A stretch of DNA of 56,139 nt, taken from contig JAFZUS010000001.1 of assembly GCA_017618275.1 (NCBI GenBank), positions 1-56,139 of the forward strand. The letters run 5' to 3'. Under the pieces are notes generated by a model, which worked only from the letters and a program-made list of their open reading frames with translations, ran no database searches and was not told the DNA's origin. Shown piece after piece: positions 26,723-36,820 of this stretch (position 1 is its first letter; the number at the start of each line of letters is the position of its first letter). The position numbers and the translations under genes were made by a program. Source of the stretch: Prevotella sp. (GTDB taxonomy: Bacteria; Bacteroidota; Bacteroidia; Bacteroidales; Bacteroidaceae).

Positions 26723-26777
26723 CTCTCGATTACGACAAAACCTTTCAGAATTTGAATCGCTAAAAATAAATGAGAAA

Positions 26778-29378
26778 ATGAGAAAAATCCTATTGTTGGC
26801 ATTACTGGTGGCAGGAACTATTGCCAGGGCCCAGCGAAGTAAAAGTGAGTATGCAATTACGGTAGAGAGCAAGCAGCCCTCTGGAATCATCGATGAGATG
26901 CTCTACGGTCAACTCTTTGAGCATATCTATTTCAGTGCCAACAATGGTGTCTGGCAAGAACTCATACAGGAGCGTTCGTTTGAGCCAGAGCAATATCCTG
27001 GCATCCATCCGCGTGACGGTTACTTCGACGGATGGTTTATGGACGATGACATGGTGCTCCATTCACCTACCCGTTATGAACAGCCGCTCAAGATTGACAG
27101 CATCAACACCTGCGACTTCGACCTGACGATGGATGTGAACTGGCGTGCATACAAGTTGGCACGACGCAGTTGGAGCGGAGGACTGATGGACATCCGTTTC
27201 GCTGTCCGCAACAAGAAGGACGGCACACCTTATTTTGTCCGCATACACGATCCGTATTACGAGAGCCGCACGTTTACGCCTGCACAGACGCAAGCACAGA
27301 TCGACGCAGCCAATGAGACCGCTGCCCGTGCTGCACTTCAGCAACAGAGCGCCACGGCAGATTTCTCCATCTGCTCAATGGAAGTCCGTGAGATGGCTGG
27401 TTTCGGTGGACGTCCGGGACGTCGCATGAATGTTCTGACACCATTGATTTCGGCTCCGGCTACGAAGGAACAGGTAAATGAGGAGCAGAAGTGGCACAAA
27501 CTGCGCATAGAGAGCCGTGGTAGCAAGGTGACGGTGTTCTGGGACGGCAAGGAAGTTCTGACCTACGACGGATTGGAGAAAGCCGACTGTAATTTCCTGA
27601 TGTTTTGGGTGAACTATACAGAGGCCACATACCGCAATATACGTCTGACATCAACCGATGGTAAAGTCCTCTTTGAGGGCACTCCTGGCGATGTGCAGAT
27701 TCCGGCTGTGGCCCAGCAGTGGACGGCCTTTGGCGAAGGTGGTAAATACCGTTTGGTGAAGGATGATGCTGTGAACATGCGCTATTCGCAGGAGATAACG
27801 GCAGGCAAGACGGAGGCTGGCATCTTCCAAGGTCCTCAGAACATAACAGTAAATGAAAAATATGTAGGTTCCATCTATGCCAAGGGAAAGGGAGAGCTGA
27901 TTGTCGGCCTGCGTAATGAGAAAGGAGATTTTGTGGCACGTCAGTCACTCGGCAAGGTGAGCAAGGAATGGAAGAAATACGATTTCGTCCTTGAACCGAG
28001 GTCTCTTGGCAATCAGGACAATGTTAAGCTCAGGCTGAAAATGGATGGAGGCAGAGTAGAACAGATCAGCGGTGATGGTGATTTCGCAATAGTGGTTAAG
28101 GGTGGCACGGTGCAGGTGGATATGGCGACCATGACCACGCAGACGGGTAAGAATCTGGGCGGGTTCCGTCCCGACATCCTGCAAGCCGTGAAGGAACTGC
28201 ATCCCACCTGTTTGCGCTGGCCAGGCGGTGGCTATGTGGCGCAGTATGACTGGAAATGGGGCATCGGTCCGCAGGAGAAACGTGAGCGCTGGGCTCATTG
28301 GATGTGGATGGACTATGACCAGAACTGCTTCGGCACCGATGAATTCATCCGTTTCTGTCGCGAGGTCAATTCCGAACCCATCATCGTGGTGAGCGTGAAG
28401 TTCGAGCGTCCTGCCGATGAGTACGACAGCATCCTGCAGGATGCGGTGAACTGGCTGCGCTACTGCAATGCCCCCGCCACCGACGAGTGGGGCGCAAAGC
28501 GTGCCGCCAACGGACATCCGGAACCCTACAACGTGAAATACTGGGAGATAGACAACGAAATGTGGGAGATGGGTATCGACCGCTATGAGAAGTGTGTGCG
28601 CGACTTCAGTACGGCGATGCGTAAGATAGACCCCTCCATCAAGATTATCGCCTGTGGCGGCTTCCGCGAGGACGAGGATTTCATCAAGCGCAGTGGCAAC
28701 TATTTCGACTACCTGAGTCTGCACCACTATGAGCAGCAGGGCGGCTATGCCACCGGTCCCGTACGTCTGGGACAGCAGTACGACCGCTATGCCCAGATGA
28801 TTGCTGACGGTCCTAACCCGAACATCAAACTTTTTATTTCTGAGTGGAACCTGAACAGCATCGACTGGCGCACAGGCCTGTTTGCAGGCGGATTCCTCAA
28901 TATGTGCGAGGCTCGTGACGTGGTGGCGATGGGTGCTGCTGCGCTGTTCATACGTCGTACCGATGCCCCTGACTGGAACAACGCCTTCATCAATTTTGAT
29001 TACAAGGATCTGTTCAAGGCCCCTAATTGCCAGGTCACGGAACTTTGGTACGACCATTTTTCGAAGTACCGTTTGGCCTATAGCGGTGAGACGGGCAATC
29101 TGAGCGTGAGCACCACCATGATGGAGAATGGCTCAGGTGTGATTGTGAAGGTGGTGAATCCTACCGATGAGCCTGCCACGCTGCGCATCAAGGGCGACTG
29201 GCCAAATGTGAAGGAGACGGCGTTTGAATATTACGCTCCAGGTTCACTGACTGTAGCCAACAGCATGGAGAACAAACATGCCGTTGCCTTGCAGAAGGCC
29301 GTTCCAGAGACCGATGGCTGCGATGTCGTGCTCTCCGTCCCAGCGCTTTCTGCTGGTGTGCTTACAATCAAGAAATAG
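26778..29378 (+). CDS. Secreted alpha-L-arabinofuranosidase, GH51 family
   Basis: With the start at 26778 this is an 866-residue protein with a signal peptide (MRKILLLALLVAGTIARAQ). The N-terminal GH51 motif IDEMLYGQLFEHIYFS is followed by an inserted lectin-like segment (WHKLRIESRGSKVTVFWDG), then a CBM-like beta domain, and then the catalytic barrel with CLRWPGGGY. The acid/base is Glu594 in YWEIDNEMW and the nucleophile Glu689 in FISEWN. The family removes arabinofuranosyl groups from arabinoxylan or arabinan. The long insertion makes it bigger than minimal GH51 enzymes. It has its own promoter and is not flanked by SusC/SusD genes, so it is not in a typical polysaccharide utilisation locus. 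Confidence 0.93.
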   Translation: MRKILLLALLVAGTIARAQRSKSEYAITVESKQPSGIIDEMLYGQLFEHIYFSANNGVWQELIQERSFEPEQYPGIHPRDGYFDGWFMDDDMVLHSPTRYEQPLKIDSINTCDFDLTMDVNWRAYKLARRSWSGGLMDIRFAVRNKKDGTPYFVRIHDPYYESRTFTPAQTQAQIDAANETAARAALQQQSATADFSICSMEVREMAGFGGRPGRRMNVLTPLISAPATKEQVNEEQKWHKLRIESRGSKVTVFWDGKEVLTYDGLEKADCNFLMFWVNYTEATYRNIRLTSTDGKVLFEGTPGDVQIPAVAQQWTAFGEGGKYRLVKDDAVNMRYSQEITAGKTEAGIFQGPQNITVNEKYVGSIYAKGKGELIVGLRNEKGDFVARQSLGKVSKEWKKYDFVLEPRSLGNQDNVKLRLKMDGGRVEQISGDGDFAIVVKGGTVQVDMATMTTQTGKNLGGFRPDILQAVKELHPTCLRWPGGGYVAQYDWKWGIGPQEKRERWAHWMWMDYDQNCFGTDEFIRFCREVNSEPIIVVSVKFERPADEYDSILQDAVNWLRYCNAPATDEWGAKRAANGHPEPYNVKYWEIDNEMWEMGIDRYEKCVRDFSTAMRKIDPSIKIIACGGFREDEDFIKRSGNYFDYLSLHHYEQQGGYATGPVRLGQQYDRYAQMIADGPNPNIKLFISEWNLNSIDWRTGLFAGGFLNMCEARDVVAMGAAALFIRRTDAPDWNNAFINFDYKDLFKAPNCQVTELWYDHFSKYRLAYSGETGNLSVSTTMMENGSGVIVKVVNPTDEPATLRIKGDWPNVKETAFEYYAPGSLTVANSMENKHAVALQKAVPETDGCDVVLSVPALSAGVLTIKK

Positions 29379-29453: not shown

Positions 29454-29850
29454 GGGGGTGACTGGATTTGACGGCAAGTCGAGATGGTACGTAAGCATGC
29501 GGAGTGAAGACTGTGTTCTCCGAAATCAAGTCGGTCGAAAAATTAATTGGCAACAACGAGTATGCTCTCGCTGCCTAATCGAAGTATAGTAGATTACTGG
29601 CTTTATTCTCTTACAAGGTAGGAGAACGAGACGTCGCTCCGAGGATGGTGTTCCGAATCCAAAGATCCAGCGGCGCAGGTTAAATCGGAAATAGTCTTGT
29701 CAGGCCTCGATGGCGGGATGAAATCTTAGAGGATAAGGGTGCAATTGGTGGCTCAGGTCTTGTTGTATCACGAAAATGAAGGCTGAGATAAGCATGTAGA
29801 AAGCGTATGGTTTCCTTGTGCGGACGAGGGTTCGAATCCCTCCACTTCCA
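29454..29850 (+). ncRNA. ssrA: tmRNA
   Basis: The 5' end GGGGGTGACTGGATTTGACGG and the 3' end with GGGTTCGAATCCC are the two halves of a tRNA-like domain. GGGGGTG (29454-29460) pairs with CACTTCC (29843-29849), giving a seven-pair acceptor stem with two G-U pairs, and A29850 is the discriminator. The CCA end is not encoded. The tag reading frame at 29549-29578 gives GNNEYALAA followed by TAA, ending in the conserved YALAA degradation signal. tmRNA with SmpB frees stalled ribosomes and tags the incomplete peptide. It has its own promoter and a strong terminator. Confidence 0.96.
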
Positions 29851-29853
29851 CAG

Positions 29854-29901: not shown

Positions 29902-30684
29902 TTACTGCTTCAGTGCCTCGAACAGTTGGTCGAGGGCTTTATTGGCGTTGCCTTCTGCCTCGTTGAGCAGGGTGACGAACTTCGAACCGATAATGGCGCC
30001 TGCGGCATTGTCTTGTGCGGCTTTGAGAGTCTGGGCGTTCGAGATGCCGAAGCCGATCATTCGGGGATTGCGCAGGTTCATCGCGTTGATGCGACGGAAA
30101 TACTCCTGTTTCTGGTCGTCGAAACTCTTCTGCGTACCAGTAATAGAGGCTGAACTGACCATATAGATAAAACCGTCGGTGTGGTCGTCGATGAAACGGA
30201 TGCGCTCCTCGCTGGTCTCGGGGGTGATGAGCATGATGATGCGCAAGTCGTATTTGTCTGCTACCGGCTTCACGATATTCAGATAGTCGTCGAAGGGCAG
30301 GTCGGGTATGATGGCTCCGCTGACGCCAGCCTCGACGCATCTTTTGCAAAACGCTTCGATGCCGTAGTGAAGGATGGGGTTGAGATAGCCCATCAACACA
30401 AGAGGAATTTCCACTTGGTCTTTGATTGCCTGCAACTGGGCGAAGAGTTTGCTAAGGGTCATACCGTTTCTGAGGGCCTGTGTGGCAGCACTCTGGATGA
30501 CGGGACCGTCAGCGAGCGGGTCGCTGAAAGGGATACCCACCTCGATCATTGCGATGCCTCTTTTTTGCATCGCCAGGATGACATCGGCTGTGCCTTCAAG
30601 GGTGGGACAGCCGGCACAGAAATAGAGCGAAAGGAGTTTCTGTTCGCTGCTGTTTGCGAAGAGTTGATTGATCTTATTCATCAT
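29902..30684 (-). CDS. trpA: Tryptophan synthase alpha subunit
   Basis: A 260-residue TIM-barrel protein that converts indole-3-glycerol phosphate to indole and glyceraldehyde 3-phosphate, channelling indole to TrpB. The catalytic acids are Glu48 in MIEVGIPFSDP and Asp59 in PLADGP; LLMGYLNPILHYG-type and FGISNAQT blocks complete the family pattern (phosphate site near GAIIGSKFV). Length is normal. It is the last gene of the trp operon. The trpF-trpA gap holds a short AT-rich repeat of the form TTTACTATTT. Confidence 0.96.
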   Translation of the reverse strand: MMNKINQLFANSSEQKLLSLYFCAGCPTLEGTADVILAMQKRGIAMIEVGIPFSDPLADGPVIQSAATQALRNGMTLSKLFAQLQAIKDQVEIPLVLMGYLNPILHYGIEAFCKRCVEAGVSGAIIPDLPFDDYLNIVKPVADKYDLRIIMLITPETSEERIRFIDDHTDGFIYMVSSASITGTQKSFDDQKQEYFRRINAMNLRNPRMIGFGISNAQTLKAAQDNAAGAIIGSKFVTLLNEAEGNANKALDQLFEALKQ

Positions 30685-30685
30685 A

Positions 30686-31360
30686 TCATTTACTATTTGA
30701 CAATTTACTATTTATTGACCTGTTTAATTCATTTAAGAATTTCTGGAGAATGGCAACATCTTTAAGTCCAGGGGCGAGTTCGAAGCGAGAGTTGAGATCG
30801 ATGCCGATGCAGTGCTTGGAACCAAGGACCGAGAGATAAGAATTAAGAACTTCTACGTCGTCGGGACCGATGCCGCCACTAAGCAGGAAGGGAGTTTCGC
30901 TATCGTAGGCGGAGAGCACGTTCCAGTCGAACTTCTCGCCATTGCCGCCAACGGACTTACCTTTAGTATCAAAGAGGAAGTAATTGACGATGCCTTCGTA
31001 GGGCTTGGTTTGAGCGAAGTCGTCGGCTGTAGCGATGTTGAAAGCCTTGATGATGGCGATGCCATCGCCACAAACCGAACGAATACTACGGACGATGTCG
31101 GGCGATTCAGTACCGTGGAGTTGGATGAAGTCTAGAGCGTAGTCTTTGGCGATTTGCATGATGGTTTCTGTGTCTTCGTTGACAAAGACACCGACCTTCT
31201 TTGCCTTCTGGGGCAGATAGTTGGGGCGCTCGCTGACATAACGGCTCGACTTTGACCAGAAGATAAAGCCCATCAGGTCGATGCCTAACGACTCGACCTC
31301 ACGGATGTTCTCTGCATCGCGCATGCCACATACTTTGATGATGGGTTTAATGGGATGCAT
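30686..31360 (-). CDS. trpF: Phosphoribosylanthranilate isomerase
   Basis: A 224-residue TIM-barrel enzyme that isomerises N-(5-phosphoribosyl)anthranilate in the third dedicated step of tryptophan synthesis. The N-terminal KVCGMRDAENI contains the catalytic Cys, FIQLHGTESPDIV and FDTKGKSVGGNGEKFDW follow (catalytic Asp in the LFDT segment), and PFLLSGGIGPDDV forms the phosphate site. It is a stand-alone protein rather than a TrpC-TrpF fusion as in E. coli. It begins four bases after the trpC stop. Confidence 0.95.
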   Translation of the reverse strand: MHPIKPIIKVCGMRDAENIREVESLGIDLMGFIFWSKSSRYVSERPNYLPQKAKKVGVFVNEDTETIMQIAKDYALDFIQLHGTESPDIVRSIRSVCGDGIAIIKAFNIATADDFAQTKPYEGIVNYFLFDTKGKSVGGNGEKFDWNVLSAYDSETPFLLSGGIGPDDVEVLNSYLSVLGSKHCIGIDLNSRFELAPGLKDVAILQKFLNELNRSINSKLSNSK

Positions 31361-31364
31361 GGAC

Positions 31365-32156
31365 TTAATGGGCTAGATGGGTGATGAAGTCGCGGAGGGC
31401 AAGACCGGGGTCGGGGGTCTTCATAAAGGTCTCGCCGATGAGGAAACCCCGGAAACCGGCTTGGCGGAGTGCCTTGACCGTATCGGGATTCGAGATGCCG
31501 CTCTCGCTGACCTTCACAGCCTCCTTAGGCAGGAGTTCTGCCAGACGGAAGGAGTTCTGGACGTCGGTGATGAACGAACCGAGGTTGCGGTTGTTGATGC
31601 CGCACATATCAGGTTCCAATGCAGCGTAGTCGAGTTCTTCCTCAACGTGCATCTCCAACAGTACCTCCATGCCCAGTTCGTGAGCAGTATTCAACAGCGA
31701 TTTGCACTCTGCCAGCGACAGGTCGGCAGCAATCAGTAATACGGCTGAAGCACCGCAGAGACGGGCTTGGAACAGTTGGTACTCGTCGATGACAAAGTTC
31801 TTGTAGAGTATGGGAATCTTCACTCCACTGTGGCGGGCGGTACGGATATAGTCGTCGCAGCCGCCGAAGTACTTGTTGTCGGTGAGTATGCTCAGTGCCG
31901 CTGCCCCGTTCTGTTGGTAGGAGAGGGGAATCAGGTCGGCCTGTCCCTCTTCCTTGATCCAGCCTTTTGAGGGCGATTTACGCTTGAACTCGGCGATGAT
32001 GCCGGAATCCGATGCCGAGAGAGCCTGCGACATCGAGGCGACGCTGAAGTCGAGTATGGCTTCGACCTGTCGGTGAATGTCGCTCTCGCTGAGTTGCGCT
32101 TTGAAGTGCTCTACTTCGATGCGCTTATGTGCCACGATTTCTTGAAGGATATCCAT
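31365..32156 (-). CDS. trpC: Indole-3-glycerol phosphate synthase
   Basis: With the start at 32156 (MDILQEIVAHKRIEVEHFK) this is 263 residues; the same frame is open further upstream but would run into trpD with unrelated residues. The enzyme closes the ring of CdRP to form indole-3-glycerol phosphate. Landmarks are IIAEFKRKSPSKGWI (catalytic Lys and substrate site), ILYKNFVIDEYQ, VLLEMHVEEELDYA, GINNRNLGSF and VSESGISNPDTV. All are family-typical. It is part of the trp operon. Confidence 0.95.
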   Translation of the reverse strand: MDILQEIVAHKRIEVEHFKAQLSESDIHRQVEAILDFSVASMSQALSASDSGIIAEFKRKSPSKGWIKEEGQADLIPLSYQQNGAAALSILTDNKYFGGCDDYIRTARHSGVKIPILYKNFVIDEYQLFQARLCGASAVLLIAADLSLAECKSLLNTAHELGMEVLLEMHVEEELDYAALEPDMCGINNRNLGSFITDVQNSFRLAELLPKEAVKVSESGISNPDTVKALRQAGFRGFLIGETFMKTPDPGLALRDFITHLAH

Positions 32157-32179
32157 GGGGATGATGGGTTTGACGGGTT

Positions 32180-33193
32180 CTATGAATTGAGGGCGACGAA
32201 CTTCTGGAAGGTTCTCAGGGCAGCGCCGCTGTCGATGCTCTCGCGGGCGATGGCGATGCACTCTTCGATGCTCTTCTCGCCCTTTTCGAGTACTTGGATG
32301 GCAAAAGCGGCATTTGCCAGTACGATATTCTTCTGGGCAGGGAGGGCACGGTTCTCAAGTACGGAGTCGAAGATCTGTGCGGCCTCTTCCTCAGTGGCAC
32401 CACCTACGAGTTCCTCAGGCTTGGCAATGTCGAAGCCTAAGTCTTGTGGCTTGAAGATGCGCTCGTAGTTCTTGGTGGTCACCTTGAAGTCGCCTGTGAG
32501 TGAGATCTCGTCGTAGCCGTCGATGGAGTTCACGATACCGTAGTCGATGCCGATCTTCTGATATACCTGATTGTAGAGGCGCATCTGGTCGAGGTTGGCG
32601 ACACCTAAGAGTTGACACTGTGGTTGAGAAGGATTTACCAGCGGACCTAAGAGATTGAAAATCGTGGGGAATTGCAAGGCCTTGCGAATAGGACCTACGA
32701 ATTTCATTGCCTTGGCAAAGAGTTGGGCGTGGAGATATACGATGCCTGCCTCGTTGAGGCTGCGATTCAGTTTGTCGATGTCATCCGTGAACTTGATGCC
32801 ATGATGGGCAATCACGTTAGAAGCACCCGATACAGAGGTGGCAGCGTAGTTGCCGTGCTTGGCTACCTTGTAGCCTGCGCCTGCAATCACAAAACAACTG
32901 GTGGTTGAGATATTAAACGTGTTCTTGCGGTCGCCGCCAGTTCCAACCACGTCGATGTAACGGTCAGCATTGAGGATGGCTGGGACACCTGTCTCTAAGA
33001 TGCCGTCGCGGAAGCCGAGCAGTTCGTCAACTGTGACACCACGCATCTGTAAAGCGGTCAGCAAGGCCGTAATCTGTTCTGTGGGATACTCACTCTGAGT
33101 GATGCCAATCAGGATATTCTTCATTTCTTCACGAGACAGTTCCTCGTGGTTCAGCATCCTGTTCAGGATGTCTTTCATTGTCTGTTTTCCCAT
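32180..33193 (-). CDS. trpD: Anthranilate phosphoribosyltransferase
   Basis: A 337-residue enzyme that joins anthranilate and PRPP. The PRPP-binding signature VVGTGGDRKNTFNIST is present, followed by VAKHGNYAATSVSGASNV and FLGPL-type NLLGPLVNPS. ATG at 33193 follows the A-rich leader AAAAACA and is chosen as start; Met6 is an alternative. It is separated from trpG by 133 bases that contain a long inverted repeat, the largest gap in the operon. Confidence 0.95.
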   Translation of the reverse strand: MGKQTMKDILNRMLNHEELSREEMKNILIGITQSEYPTEQITALLTALQMRGVTVDELLGFRDGILETGVPAILNADRYIDVVGTGGDRKNTFNISTTSCFVIAGAGYKVAKHGNYAATSVSGASNVIAHHGIKFTDDIDKLNRSLNEAGIVYLHAQLFAKAMKFVGPIRKALQFPTIFNLLGPLVNPSQPQCQLLGVANLDQMRLYNQVYQKIGIDYGIVNSIDGYDEISLTGDFKVTTKNYERIFKPQDLGFDIAKPEELVGGATEEEAAQIFDSVLENRALPAQKNIVLANAAFAIQVLEKGEKSIEECIAIARESIDSGAALRTFQKFVALNS

Positions 33194-33326: not shown

Positions 33327-33890
33327 TTATAGAAACAGCCAGTTTTGGAGCATCTTCTTGCCGTCGGGGGTCAGTACGCTTTCCGGATGGAACTGGATGC
33401 CGCGCACATTGAACTCACGATGGCGGAGGGCCATGATCTGTCCCTCGTCGCTGACGGCTGTAACCTCCAAGCAGTCGGGCAGGCCTTCGTTCGAGACCAC
33501 CCATGAGTGGTAGCGACCGATGGTAATGTCACGCTCGATGCCGCTGAAGATAGGGTCGTCGGCGATGATGTGACAAGGGGTAGCCACACCGTGGAATACG
33601 TCGCTCAGGTTTTCGAGTTTGCCGCCAAACACCTCGCCGATGGCCTGATGACCGAGGCAGACACCCAACATAGGCTTCTTGCCAGCATAGGTCTTGATGA
33701 CATCCAGCAGCAGTCCTGCCTCAGAAGGGATACCGGGTCCCGGCGAGAGGATTATCTTGCTGTAGGGCTCGAGATCGGGGAGTTCGAACTGGTCGTTGCG
33801 CACAACGGTGACCTCTGCACCTAACTCCTTCACTAAATGACTCAGATTATACGTAAATGAGTCGTAGTTATCGATAATGACTATTTTCAT
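33327..33890 (-). CDS. trpG: Anthranilate synthase component II (glutamine amidotransferase)
   Basis: A 187-residue class I glutamine amidotransferase that supplies ammonia to TrpE. The family opening IIDNYDSFTYNLSHLV is present, the oxyanion stretch LSPGPGIP, the nucleophile Cys78 in GVCLGHQAIGE, and the His-Glu pair in FHPESVLTP. In some bacteria this protein is shared with para-aminobenzoate synthesis as PabA; its position supports the tryptophan role. The start overlaps the trpE stop by four bases, consistent with a 1:1 complex. Confidence 0.96.
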   Translation of the reverse strand: MKIVIIDNYDSFTYNLSHLVKELGAEVTVVRNDQFELPDLEPYSKIILSPGPGIPSEAGLLLDVIKTYAGKKPMLGVCLGHQAIGEVFGGKLENLSDVFHGVATPCHIIADDPIFSGIERDITIGRYHSWVVSNEGLPDCLEVTAVSDEGQIMALRHREFNVRGIQFHPESVLTPDGKKMLQNWLFL

Positions 33891-35293
33891 AATGTTGCTG
33901 CTTTTTCGATGGCCTTGCGCAAGGCACCAAGTTTGTTATTCACTTCCTGTAATTCATACTCCACATTGCTCTTGGCCACGATGCCTCCGCCGGCCTGGAA
34001 CCAGAGTTCACCATTGCGCGAGACGAAGGTGCGGATGGTGATGGCCTGGTTCAACGAACCGTCGAGTCCAATGATTCCGATGCAACCGCCGTAGGCACCG
34101 CGATTATGCGGCTCGTACTCAGAGATGAGTTGCATGGCGCGCACCTTCGGCGCACCAGAGAGGGTTCCGGCGGGGAAGGTGTCGATAAAGGCCTTGATGG
34201 GATCAGCACCCTCGTCGAGTTCACCGCTGACGCGAGAGACGAGATGAATCACGTGCGAGTAGTACTGGATGTCCTTGTAGTATTCCACCTTCACCCCGTG
34301 ACAGTTGCGACTGAGGTCGTTGCGGGCAAGGTCGACGAGCATCACGTGCTCGGCATTCTCCTTGGGGTCGTTGCGCAGGAACTCTGCCCCCTTGCGGTCT
34401 GCTTCGGCATCGCCAGTACGCTTCGTGGTCCCAGCGATGGGGTCGATGTAAGCGCGGCGGCCCTCGATGCGGCAGTGGGTCTCGGGACTGCTGCCGAAGA
34501 TACGGAAACCGCCGAAGTCGAAGTAGAAGAGATAGGGAGAGGGGTTGATGCTGCGCAGGGCACGGTAGAGTTTGAAATCGTCGCCCTCATATTTCTGGAT
34601 GAATCGGCGTGAGAGTACAATCTGGAACACATCGCCACGCATACAGTGTTGGATGCCCCGACGGATATTTTCTCTGTGCTCATCGTCGGTCAGCGTGGAG
34701 CGAACATCGCCTACGGGATGGAAATCGTATGCCTTCACATTGGCTTTGTTCATTGCTTTCTGGATGGCATCGATGTCGGACGTTCCGGATTCTCCGTCAC
34801 TCTCCAGCGTCACCACCTTCAACATGTTGTTGTGATGGTCGAACTCAATCACCACCTTATACAATATATAGAGCACGTCGGGTGCATCGTTCTTGGCCTG
34901 TGTCTCGTCCTTTACGGCGATGTTCTCGAAGTAGCGCACGGCGTTGAACGAGGTGTAGCCGAAGAGTCCGCAGACATTGGCATCCTCGCCAACGACCTCT
35001 ATGCGGTCGATGAGTTCGTGGATGGCTTTGTCTGAACGATAGTCCTTATTCACTTCATGCTGAAAGGTCGTGCCATCAGGATAGGTGATGGTGGCGATGC
35101 CGTGTCCGATAGCCACGCTGGCAATGGGGTTCAGTCCGATAAACGAACGCGAGTTGTTTGCATCGTGATAGTCAGAACTCTCCATCAGTGCACTCTGCGG
35201 ATAGAGGTCGCGCAGTCGCATATATACACCTACTGGCGTATACAAATCTGCCAGAATGGTCTTCGATGTTGTTTGATATTTATAGGTAATCAT
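33887..35293 (-). CDS. trpE: Anthranilate synthase component I
   Basis: A 468-residue chorismate-utilising enzyme that makes anthranilate with ammonia from TrpG. The C-terminal chorismate-binding domain has QIVLSRRF, PSPYLFYFDFGGFRIFGSSPE, PIAGTTKRTGD, DLARNDLSRNCH and GTLSGAPKVRAMQLI. The N-terminal segment contains LMESSDYHDANNSRSFIG; the LxES motif at LMESSD is the usual tryptophan feedback site, so inhibition by Trp is expected. The short trpB-trpE gap is made of two ATGAGAAA-type units. Confidence 0.95.
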   Translation of the reverse strand: MITYKYQTTSKTILADLYTPVGVYMRLRDLYPQSALMESSDYHDANNSRSFIGLNPIASVAIGHGIATITYPDGTTFQHEVNKDYRSDKAIHELIDRIEVVGEDANVCGLFGYTSFNAVRYFENIAVKDETQAKNDAPDVLYILYKVVIEFDHHNNMLKVVTLESDGESGTSDIDAIQKAMNKANVKAYDFHPVGDVRSTLTDDEHRENIRRGIQHCMRGDVFQIVLSRRFIQKYEGDDFKLYRALRSINPSPYLFYFDFGGFRIFGSSPETHCRIEGRRAYIDPIAGTTKRTGDAEADRKGAEFLRNDPKENAEHVMLVDLARNDLSRNCHGVKVEYYKDIQYYSHVIHLVSRVSGELDEGADPIKAFIDTFPAGTLSGAPKVRAMQLISEYEPHNRGAYGGCIGIIGLDGSLNQAITIRTFVSRNGELWFQAGGGIVAKSNVEYELQEVNNKLGALRKAIEKAATL

Positions 35294-35309: not shown

Positions 35310-36515
35310 TTAAAAATCACCGTACTCTTTCGCCATCGCCTTATTCTTGAGGTAGGTTTCCACGTCCTTGTCGCCACGACCACTGACGGTGAGCACCACC
35401 ACATCAGAAGGCTTGAACGAGAGTTTCTTTAGGGCTGCAATGGCATGGGCACTCTCAATGGCAGGGATGATGCCCTCCATACGGGTCAGTTCGTAACCGC
35501 CGTAGATGGCCTCATCGTCGTTGATACTCAGAACCTGAGTGCGACCCTTCTTGGCCATATTGCAGTGCATCGGTCCCACGCCAGGATAATCGAGACCGGC
35601 ACTGATGGTAAAGGCCTCCTGTATCTGTCCGTCTTCGTCCTGCATTACCAGCATCTTTGCGCCGTGCAGGATACCCGTCGTACCACGATGAATCGTCGCT
35701 GCCGTATAGTCGGTATCCCAACCGTGTCCGCCTGCTTCGGCGAGAACGATCTTTACGCGCTCGTCGTCCATATAGTGATAGATGGTGCCTGCGGCATTTG
35801 AGCCACCACCGATGCAGGCGATGAGGTAGTCGGGGTAGTCGCGTCCGATCTTTTCTTCCAACTGCCATTTGATCTCTTCGGAGATGACGCTCTGCATCTT
35901 TGCTACGAGGTCGGGATAGGGGTGGGGACCCATCGTAGAGCCCACGATATAGAAGGTGTCGGACGGATGACAGCACCAGTCTCTTATCGCCTCGCTACAT
36001 GCATCTGAAAGCGTCATGTTGCCTGTCCTTACGGGATGCACCTCGGCACCCAGCATCTTCATGCGTTCCACATTCGTATGCTGGCGCTCCACATCGGTAG
36101 CGCCCATAAACACCTCGCACTTCATATTCATCAGTGCACAGACCGTTGCCGTAGCCACACCATGCTGTCCGGCTCCCGTCTCAGCGATGATGCGCGTCTT
36201 ACCCATCTTCTTCGCCAACAGGATCTGTCCGATGGTGTTGTTGATCTTGTGGGCACCCGTGTGGTTCAAATCCTCACGTTTCAGATACAACTGACAGCCA
36301 TATTGTTCGCTCATTCTTTTTGCAAAGTACAAGGGGGAGGGCCTGCCCACATAGTCCTTCAACAGTGCATGATACTCTGCCTTGAATTCCGCACTCTCGA
36401 TGATTGGGAGATATGCCTCTTGCAGGTCATGCACGCACTTGTAGAGAATCTCTGGCACGTAAGCGCCTCCGAACTCTCCATAAAAACCGTTTTTGTCTAC
36501 TTGATAATTGCTCAT
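35310..36515 (-). CDS. trpB: Tryptophan synthase beta subunit
   Basis: A 401-residue PLP enzyme that condenses indole and serine to tryptophan. The PLP lysine is Lys90 in LNHTGAHKINN; GFYGEFGGAYVPE at the start, AETGAGQHGVATA, and the Gly/Ser phosphate loop CIGGGSNAAG are all present. It is a TrpB1-type protein. It is the first structural gene after the leader, so the operon runs trpB-E-G-D-C-F-A. The leader ends with AACAACACAA 11 bases before the ATG. Confidence 0.96.
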   Translation of the reverse strand: MSNYQVDKNGFYGEFGGAYVPEILYKCVHDLQEAYLPIIESAEFKAEYHALLKDYVGRPSPLYFAKRMSEQYGCQLYLKREDLNHTGAHKINNTIGQILLAKKMGKTRIIAETGAGQHGVATATVCALMNMKCEVFMGATDVERQHTNVERMKMLGAEVHPVRTGNMTLSDACSEAIRDWCCHPSDTFYIVGSTMGPHPYPDLVAKMQSVISEEIKWQLEEKIGRDYPDYLIACIGGGSNAAGTIYHYMDDERVKIVLAEAGGHGWDTDYTAATIHRGTTGILHGAKMLVMQDEDGQIQEAFTISAGLDYPGVGPMHCNMAKKGRTQVLSINDDEAIYGGYELTRMEGIIPAIESAHAIAALKKLSFKPSDVVVLTVSGRGDKDVETYLKNKAMAKEYGDF

Positions 36516-36540
36516 ATATTGTATATTTGTGTTGTTGATA

Positions 36541-36587
36541 CATCTTAAAACTTTGAGAGGCCCATCGCAAGAACGACAGGCCTCTCA
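36541..36587 (-). terminator. Attenuator terminator hairpin of the trp leader
   Basis: In the minus-strand RNA, UGAGAGGCC (36587-36579) pairs with GGCCUCUCA (36562-36554), nine perfect pairs, with an inner UCG/CGA pairing, followed by AAAGUUUUAAG. It lies between the Trp-rich leader peptide and trpB, where an attenuator is expected. The U-tract is short. Confidence 0.8.
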
Positions 36588-36627
36588 GTATCTCTTCTAT
36601 ACAAACCACGGGTACAGGGCTATCTTC

Positions 36628-36684
36628 TCACGATCTTTCGAATCTTGAGTTGCGCCACCACCAATAGTTTGCTGTTCTAATCAT
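36628..36684 (-). CDS. trp operon leader peptide with three consecutive Trp codons
   Basis: A complete minus-strand reading frame from ATG at 36684 to TGA at 36628-36630 encodes MIRTANYWWWRNSRFERS, 18 residues, with three successive UGG codons at 36663-36655. It starts about 27 bases after the predicted transcription start and ends 41 bases before the terminator hairpin upstream of trpB. Tryptophan is rare, so three in a row in a short peptide directly before the trp genes strongly indicate a ribosome-stalling leader peptide. When charged tRNA-Trp is scarce the ribosome would pause there and favour read-through into trpB. The mechanism is inferred by analogy with trpL systems; the peptide and hairpin are seen directly. 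Too short for most gene finders. Confidence 0.85.
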   Translation of the reverse strand: MIRTANYWWWRNSRFERS

Positions 36685-36716
36685 GTCTGATTCTTTTCTC
36701 GATTACTTTTCGGCGG

Positions 36717-36724
36717 CAAAAGTA
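36717..36724 (-). promoter_or_regulatory. -7 promoter element for the trp operon
   Basis: The minus strand reads TACTTTTG; TTTG at 36748-36745 lies 24 bases upstream as a -33 element. Transcription would start near 36711, giving a leader of about 195 bases before trpB. The rest of the 373-base gap from 36516 to 36888 holds the leader peptide, the attenuator and the glnN terminator. Confidence 0.75.
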
Positions 36725-36820
36725 GACATTTTCTTTCAAACTGCCAAATTTTTAAACTATTTTTTTTCAAATAGGCATAAACTTTTTGTTTTTGTTGCCA
36801 TTTTATTTCGATGAAAACGA

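Follow-up and report, generated by a model that had tools for sequence, protein, structure and literature searches.

The locus described here raises the question of whether the region ahead of trpB, on the minus strand of a 56,139-nucleotide stretch of Prevotella sp. DNA (the window), is a switch by which the ribosome controls transcription of the trp operon. A preliminary description had read it as a ribosome-mediated attenuator with a Trp-Trp-Trp leader peptide. Comparison of sequences makes it highly probable that the trp operon is controlled here by a ribosome-mediated transcription attenuator, a divergent copy of the Bacteroid-trp leader, and this switch would very probably let the trp genes be read only when tryptophan is scarce. 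The anatomy of the leader, its conservation, the covariation of its helices and its fit to ribosome position in folding were each observed.

Organization of the operon and its leader

Downstream of the leader, the genes follow in the order trpBEGDCFA on the minus strand:

35310..36515, minus strand: trpB, the first gene of the operon (TIGR00263, 564 bits)
33887..35293, minus strand: trpE (best match TIGR00564, 417.8 bits, below the equivalog cut-off of 517.7)
33327..33890, minus strand: trpG (TIGR00566, above its cut-off)
32180..33193, minus strand: trpD (TIGR01245, above its cut-off)
31365..32261, minus strand: trpC (NF001377, above its cut-off; the profile starts at residue 36)
30686..31360, minus strand: trpF (phosphoribosylanthranilate isomerase models; best NF002295, 160 bits, below the cut-off of 216)
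29902..30684, minus strand: trpA (TIGR00262, above its cut-off)

The true start of trpC is probably downstream of the first GTG of the frame at 31365..32261. A tmRNA gene, located by the Rfam scan at 29454-29853 on the plus strand, adjoins the 3′ end of trpA.

The leader region comprises the following elements:

36717..36748, minus strand: promoter of the Bacteroidota type, read from the sequence as TTTG (36748-36745), a 20-base spacer and TACTTTTG (36724-36717)
36628..36684, minus strand: leader peptide frame MIRTANYWWWRNSRFERS with its stop codon UGA, read from the sequence and kept upstream of trp operons
36655..36663, minus strand: sensing codons, three adjacent UGG (Trp), with adjacent Trp codons in relatives
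36641..36649, minus strand: strand 1, CUCAAGAUU, pairing with strand 2 when the ribosome covers neither (1:2 covariation)
36618..36632, minus strand: strand 2, CGUGAGAAGAUAGCC, with strand 1 or strand 3 as partner (duplex energies and covariation)
36601..36672, minus strand: outer protector helix of GCAAACUAU (36672-36664) with GUGGUUUGU (36609-36601), from the minimum free energy (MFE) fold; the region is also paired in the RF01692 model
36568..36586, minus strand: strand 3, the terminator 5′ arm (36586-36574) plus the loop UUCUUG (36573-36568), forming the antiterminator with strand 2
36547..36586, minus strand: terminator-like hairpin (36586-36555), then AAAG and UUUU (36550-36547), from the MFE fold and covariation

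Reading of the sequence confirmed the order of promoter, 18-codon frame, hairpin and trpB on the minus strand that had been described before, and the three adjacent UGG codons lie in the frame at 36663-36655, as claimed. The frame runs from ATG (36684-36682) to UGA (36630-36628); strand 1 is made of the codons after the Trp run, and strand 2 extends from the end of the last leader codon through the stop codon to ten bases beyond it. The element TACTTTTG conforms to TAnnTTTG, which we take to be the promoter consensus of Bacteroidota. The 165-nt leader folds at z = -6.2 relative to shuffled sequence. The hairpin stem, previously given as nine pairs, has in fact 13 continuous pairs, or 15 in the MFE fold.

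Conservation of the leader

The leader was searched for in 151 regions upstream of trpB, namely the window's own, 30 from the family search (in which TrpB or a TrpB relative was matched in 268 of 299 genomes), 80 from named Prevotella-type records and 40 across genera, chosen among the matches listed. The 30 family-search loci include the window again, which is thus counted twice, and the 151 regions are not independent, many of them coming from close relatives. The rule applied was strict and required a frame that opens with ATG, is 8-40 codons long and has two UGG codons side by side; 134 of the 151 regions satisfy it, against 12 of 3020 first-order Markov controls. Of 127 distinct relatives, 123 have a TAnnTTTG motif in the 95 bases preceding the Trp codons, compared with 33 of 1270 shuffles, and 122 have an upstream TTG as well.

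The 17 regions failing the rule fall into four kinds. Seven have Trp-Arg-Trp in place of adjacent Trp codons (L028, L031, L114, L116, L123, L135 and L136); one, L058, is cut by a contig end and still reads UGGUGGUGG; five have trpB inside an operon whose first trp gene found is trpD (L019, L021, L022, L025 and L026); and four are without leader. When the five trpD-led operons were fetched further upstream (L240-L244), a WWW leader stood directly before trpD in all five; trpC was not found in the L244 operon.

Intact operons with no leader, which the preliminary description had named as something that would refute attenuation, do occur in four relatives: L245-L248 retain trpB-E-G-D without a leader (trpB loci L115, L146, L147 and L148 of the same genomes). 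They are a minority. The TAnnTTTG motif was found 62, 38 and 38 bases before trpB in L146, L147 and L148, respectively, and was not found before trpB in L115. Because the motif sits 38-62 bases before trpB in three of them, these operons are best read as having lost the leader.

Outside the family, 27 trpE loci of the class were surveyed. A short ORF with adjacent Trp codons was present in 19 of the 27 (controls, 5 of 1300), and a rule accepting WW or W-x-W was passed by 24 (controls, 21 of 1300). The three misses are L214 and L222, cut by contig ends, and L224, a true miss with no leader before trpE; three of the passes, those of L213, L220 and L237, are doubtful and could have arisen by chance. 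The same survey held 14 trpB and five trpD regions that had been preselected for a leader, so that the fair count is that of the 27 trpE regions. In this survey set, the stems of L153, L225, L242 and L243 were implausible and L244 had none; L242-L244 are nevertheless found by R1, a trp-leader model built with the window copy.

At 58 trpB loci outside the family, a credible leader directly before trpB was seen in 14, a doubtful frame in four and none in 40, these counts covering the region immediately before trpB. The WW frames of the four doubtful loci (L167, L172, L201 and L203) look like chance. In 25 of the 40 leaderless loci, a frame of at least 100 residues ends within 60 bases of trpB.

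The leader follows the operon and not the gene, preceding trpB, trpD or trpE, whichever leads. It is found 5′ of tryptophan synthesis genes in Bacteroidota, the nearest named records being Prevotella, Prevotellaceae and Xylanibacter.

Two further arrangements were observed. In three genomes of genus g18 (L259, L260 and L261), the operon is split between trpG and trpD, and a second, near-identical WWW leader lies before trpD. At L262 and L267, a WWW or WW leader precedes a second TrpB-like gene, whose identity to the TrpB of the window is 29% and 27%, respectively.

Alternative pairings of the leader RNA

The 134 accepted leaders comprise 128 distinct ones, two of which are without the core hairpin, leaving 126. 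A U-run after the hairpin is present in the window as described before, but it is weaker than typical: the tail AAAGUUUUAAG has at most four U in the eight bases around the end of the stem, where 113 of the 126 leaders have at least five, and the hairpin is not listed by the consensus terminator scan. As a feature of an intrinsic terminator, the U-run of the window copy is doubtful. This weakness, and a hairpin ending only 40 bases before the trpB start, would suit a leader acting on translation or mRNA stability, with the hairpin as a structured spacer and a stalled ribosome altering access to the start of trpB. Such a role is very unlikely, given the richer U-runs of most relatives, a trpB start that lies outside the hairpin, and the placement of the same leader before trpD and trpE.

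Covariation was counted on an alignment (A1) of 27 aligned leaders, with 500 shuffles. The 1:2 and 3:4 helices together are 96.7% paired, compared with 86.9% in the shuffles; 16 of the 20 pairs show changes on both sides, and none of the 500 shuffles was as high on any of five measures. Taken separately, the 1:2 helix is 94.7% paired, with both-side changes in five of seven pairs, and the 13-pair terminator stem (3:4) is 97.7% paired, with both-side changes in 11 of 13. The check proposed in the preliminary description, for UGG runs in relatives and compensatory changes in the hairpin, thus found both.

RNAalifold recovers 1:2 and 3:4; as it is unable to show 2:3, that pairing was tested separately. 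For each leader, the sequence following the Trp run was matched to the terminator 5′ arm plus loop, and the best duplex was taken as 2:3; in the window, it joins CGUGAGAAGAUAGCC (36632-36618) with GGCCUGUCGUUCUUGCG. Five of the 126 leaders were dropped before the counts of offset and ribosome position. In 118 of the remaining 121, the distance from the last Trp codon to the start of the duplex is 16-25 nt, and in 115 the duplex is better than that of a shuffled stretch. In a permutation set of 39 of 43 representatives (four with short stems were dropped), the cognate duplexes had a mean of -15.88 kcal/mol, compared with -13.42 for permuted partners, and none of 10000 permutations reached so low a value; for a control stretch preceding the Trp codons, the mean was -6.46 kcal/mol. 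Only two of the 39 had their cognate partner as the single best, and the median rank of the cognate was ninth.

By eye, strands 1, 2 and 3 change together among leaders, as CUCA/UGAG/CUUGCG or CUCACG, as CUUA/UAAG/CUUACG, and as CUCG/CGAG with GUCGCGAC. A six-pair core of 2:3 is 89.5% paired, against 86.2% in the shuffles (0 of 500 as high), and its covariation score is 0.266, compared with 0.189 (0 of 500); when slid, it is 22-44% paired. On two of the five measures, namely double-change pairs (63 of 500 shuffles) and pair types (455 of 500), the core was not above its shuffles, nor was a GCC/GGC extension of 2:3. Six SRD-type leaders do not fit the fixed register of 2:3 and pair in a shifted one.

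Both alternative pairings of strand 2 thus have support from covariation, the antiterminator less strongly. The leader has a mutually exclusive antiterminator (2:3) and protector (1:2), with 2:3 the weaker by pair counts.

The protector alone was considered as the entire switch and ruled out: in most relatives, strand 2 also pairs with the terminator arm, and does so at a fixed position.

T-boxes, TRAP-type systems and repressors control trp genes in other bacteria, and a leader of one of these types could contain the short ORF as an incidental feature. This is almost certainly not the case here. The Trp codons are conserved, the strands overlapping the ORF covary with the hairpin, and no T-box match was obtained at gathering over the window, nor any to E 10 in 36500-36760.

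Ribosome position and proposed mechanism

The effect of the ribosome on the choice of pairing was examined by masked folding, with an assumed ribosome size and an RNA ending at the loop. In the window, moving the A site from the first Trp codon to the second and the third raised the mean 2:3 pairing from 0.43 to 0.49 and then to 0.70, and the value was 0.00 with no ribosome or with the ribosome at the stop codon; the CUCA/UGAG pairing of the protector persisted at 0.84 and 0.54 with the A site on the first and second Trp codons. A ribosome on the last Trp codon gave a mean of 8.58 expected 2:3 pairs over the 121 leaders, compared with 1.26 when no ribosome was present and 0.49 when it stood at the stop, and at least four such pairs were expected in 95, 13 and 4 leaders, respectively; the stalled state gave fewer than four in 26. 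In these folding models, a ribosome on the Trp codons favours the antiterminator.

When the full-length leader is folded to equilibrium, the terminator prevails whatever the state of the ribosome, and therefore the switch must be kinetic, set during RNA synthesis. A kinetic choice during transcription is also how the classical attenuation system works.

We infer the start site, the translation of the frame, the stalling, the termination, its dependence on tryptophan and a kinetic selection between the folds, which together would give the following mechanism. RNA polymerase would start near 36710, and a ribosome would translate the 18-codon leader. With ample charged tRNA-Trp, the ribosome would reach the stop codon and cover strand 2 (36632-36618), whereupon the hairpin at 36586-36555 would form and transcription would end near 36547. 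With scarce charged tRNA-Trp, the ribosome would wait on the UGG codons (36663-36655), covering part or all of strand 1, and the freed strand 2 could pair with strand 3 before strand 4 is made, allowing the polymerase to enter trpBEGDCFA. If no ribosome is present, strands 1:2 and the outer helix would form, making termination the default.

The reading of the locus as ribosome-mediated trp attenuation made in the preliminary description is thus supported: the features that sequence can test are present and conserved, the U-run of this copy alone being doubtful, and the antiterminator is added to the reading here.

Besides attenuation, the released leader RNA or peptide might act in trans, as peTrpL of Sinorhizobium does; PMC7298713 describes such a role for a leader peptide, and in close relatives the residues that follow the Trp run are conserved. 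That conservation is, however, explained by the RNA strands 1 and 2 that the region encodes, and an additional action in trans is most unlikely.

Relation to known RNA families and attenuators

The leader overlaps a match to a described RNA family:

36575..36707, minus strand: Rfam RF01692 (Bacteroid-trp), matched with 37.3 bits where the gathering score is 49

RF01692 is named "Bacteroidete tryptophan peptide leader RNA" and, according to Table 1 of Weinberg et al. 2010 (PMC2864571), is a probable cis-regulatory RNA of Bacteroidetes. An element of this kind is therefore not new for Bacteroidota. In a permissive scan, the window copy aligns over the full length of the model (1-131), with the protector region paired alike; the default Rfam scan at gathering does not call RF01692 in the window, because 37.3 bits lie under the cut-off. 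By its name, the family is likewise a tryptophan peptide leader of Bacteroidetes, but its model ends in the terminator 5′ arm and is without the terminator or the antiterminator pairing. The window leader is judged a sub-threshold, homologous copy of the known RF01692 family and not a new kind of element. What is added here is the antiterminator and terminator outside the Rfam model, the spread of the leader, and two further leaders of the same genome, likely for Phe/Tyr and Leu/Ile.

Two leaders of the same genus (L240 and L241) pass the RF01692 cut-off with 59.1 and 49.4 bits, and score 120.7 and 119.1 bits with R1. A second model, R2, made from 14 leaders of other genera with the genus of the window left out, finds the window copy with 75.7 bits (E 1.2e-12 genome-wide), the next place having E 0.27. 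No second copy of the leader was seen in the same genome by R1 or R2, and the next best place of R1 (E 0.09) is the same hairpin on the other strand.

A match of R1 at 26770-26896 on the plus strand (16.7 bits) lies inside an open frame of 905 aa and was taken as noise.

Among 101 family genomes, 27 have an RF01692 match above the cut-off and 39 have one reaching E 0.001, in a search whose filters lose weak matches, while R1, which was trained on some of these genomes, matches at E 0.01 in 83 and at E 1e-6 or better in 77. In two chosen sets of loci, RF01692 was called in 7 of 20 and 4 of 20, the latter set including non-trp loci. Among the matches listed, seven genomes of the window's genus have R1 values of 3e-19 or better, and RF01692 calls two of them (G004 and G132). 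Comparison of the RF01692 and R1 counts indicates that annotation by the curated cut-off misses many copies.

In the trpL leader of Escherichia coli and other Proteobacteria, tandem Trp codons are followed by strands 1 to 4, and the position of the ribosome selects the antiterminator or the terminator. The leader described here resembles it in architecture, with tandem Trp codons, four strands and a fold probably chosen by the ribosome; it differs in having the leader stop codon within strand 2, a promoter of the Bacteroidota type and trpB as the first gene.

Passages of PMC1262725 describe trp attenuators of Corynebacterium and Streptomyces with two or three UGG codons, a GC-rich poly-U terminator and complementary triples common to the antiterminator and terminator. 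Compared by that description, they share with the present leader the UGG codons, the GC-rich terminator and the common triples, but they belong to another phylum and have other sequences. Within Bacteroidota, PMC9723704 reports "strong clues" that leader peptides mediate attenuation upstream of amino-acid operons in Flavobacterium psychrophilum. These clues concern the same phylum, but the words trp and tryptophan are absent from the main text of that paper. A map of Bacteroides thetaiotaomicron includes a passage on short ORFs reminiscent of leader peptides. Taken together, the passages on these two species mean that attenuation in this phylum has been suggested in print. No published description of the present antiterminator was found in the literature, which was searched without the name Bacteroid-trp.

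Probable leaders of other amino-acid operons and significance

Two other putative leaders were observed in the same genome. L274 (G000:C59) has a Phe/Tyr-rich frame, MKMSMLNAYFYGYYFYFASNCEAGSRK, with a hairpin and U-run before a prephenate dehydratase gene (PF00800), and L275 (G000:C101) has a Leu/Ile-rich frame, MMSKNLLNGLIIIRLQGAVGSDKVYIY, with a hairpin and U-run before a LeuA-type gene (PF00682); the latter is weakly matched by R1 (14.6 bits). In both, the 5′ arm of the hairpin matches part of the end of the frame, the strands having been assigned by eye where the script chose other hairpins. Their sequences make them likely Phe/Tyr and Leu/Ile leaders.

In addition, L265 (G146:C44), on the minus strand before hisG, carries a His-run leader, MRNYTTHRHHHYLT, with terminator and antiterminator. 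It scores 50.1 bits with the trp model R1, by eye largely over the terminator.

The amino-acid attenuators of Bacteroidota could be imagined as one portable three-strand cassette travelling with its promoter, set before whichever trp gene leads, copied at operon splits, placed before a TrpB-like gene and re-tuned through its sensing codons. This idea is tentative and rather unlikely to hold; it draws on the 50-bit score of the hisG leader, much of which the terminator may supply.

The trp leader of this rumen-type bacterium is a good example of a type of switch already listed for Bacteroidota, and it gives an explicit antiterminator to mutate. The trpE loci passing the WW or W-x-W rule (24/27) indicate that attenuation logic in the style of E. 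coli also runs, with sequences of its own, in Bacteroidota beyond the family of the window.
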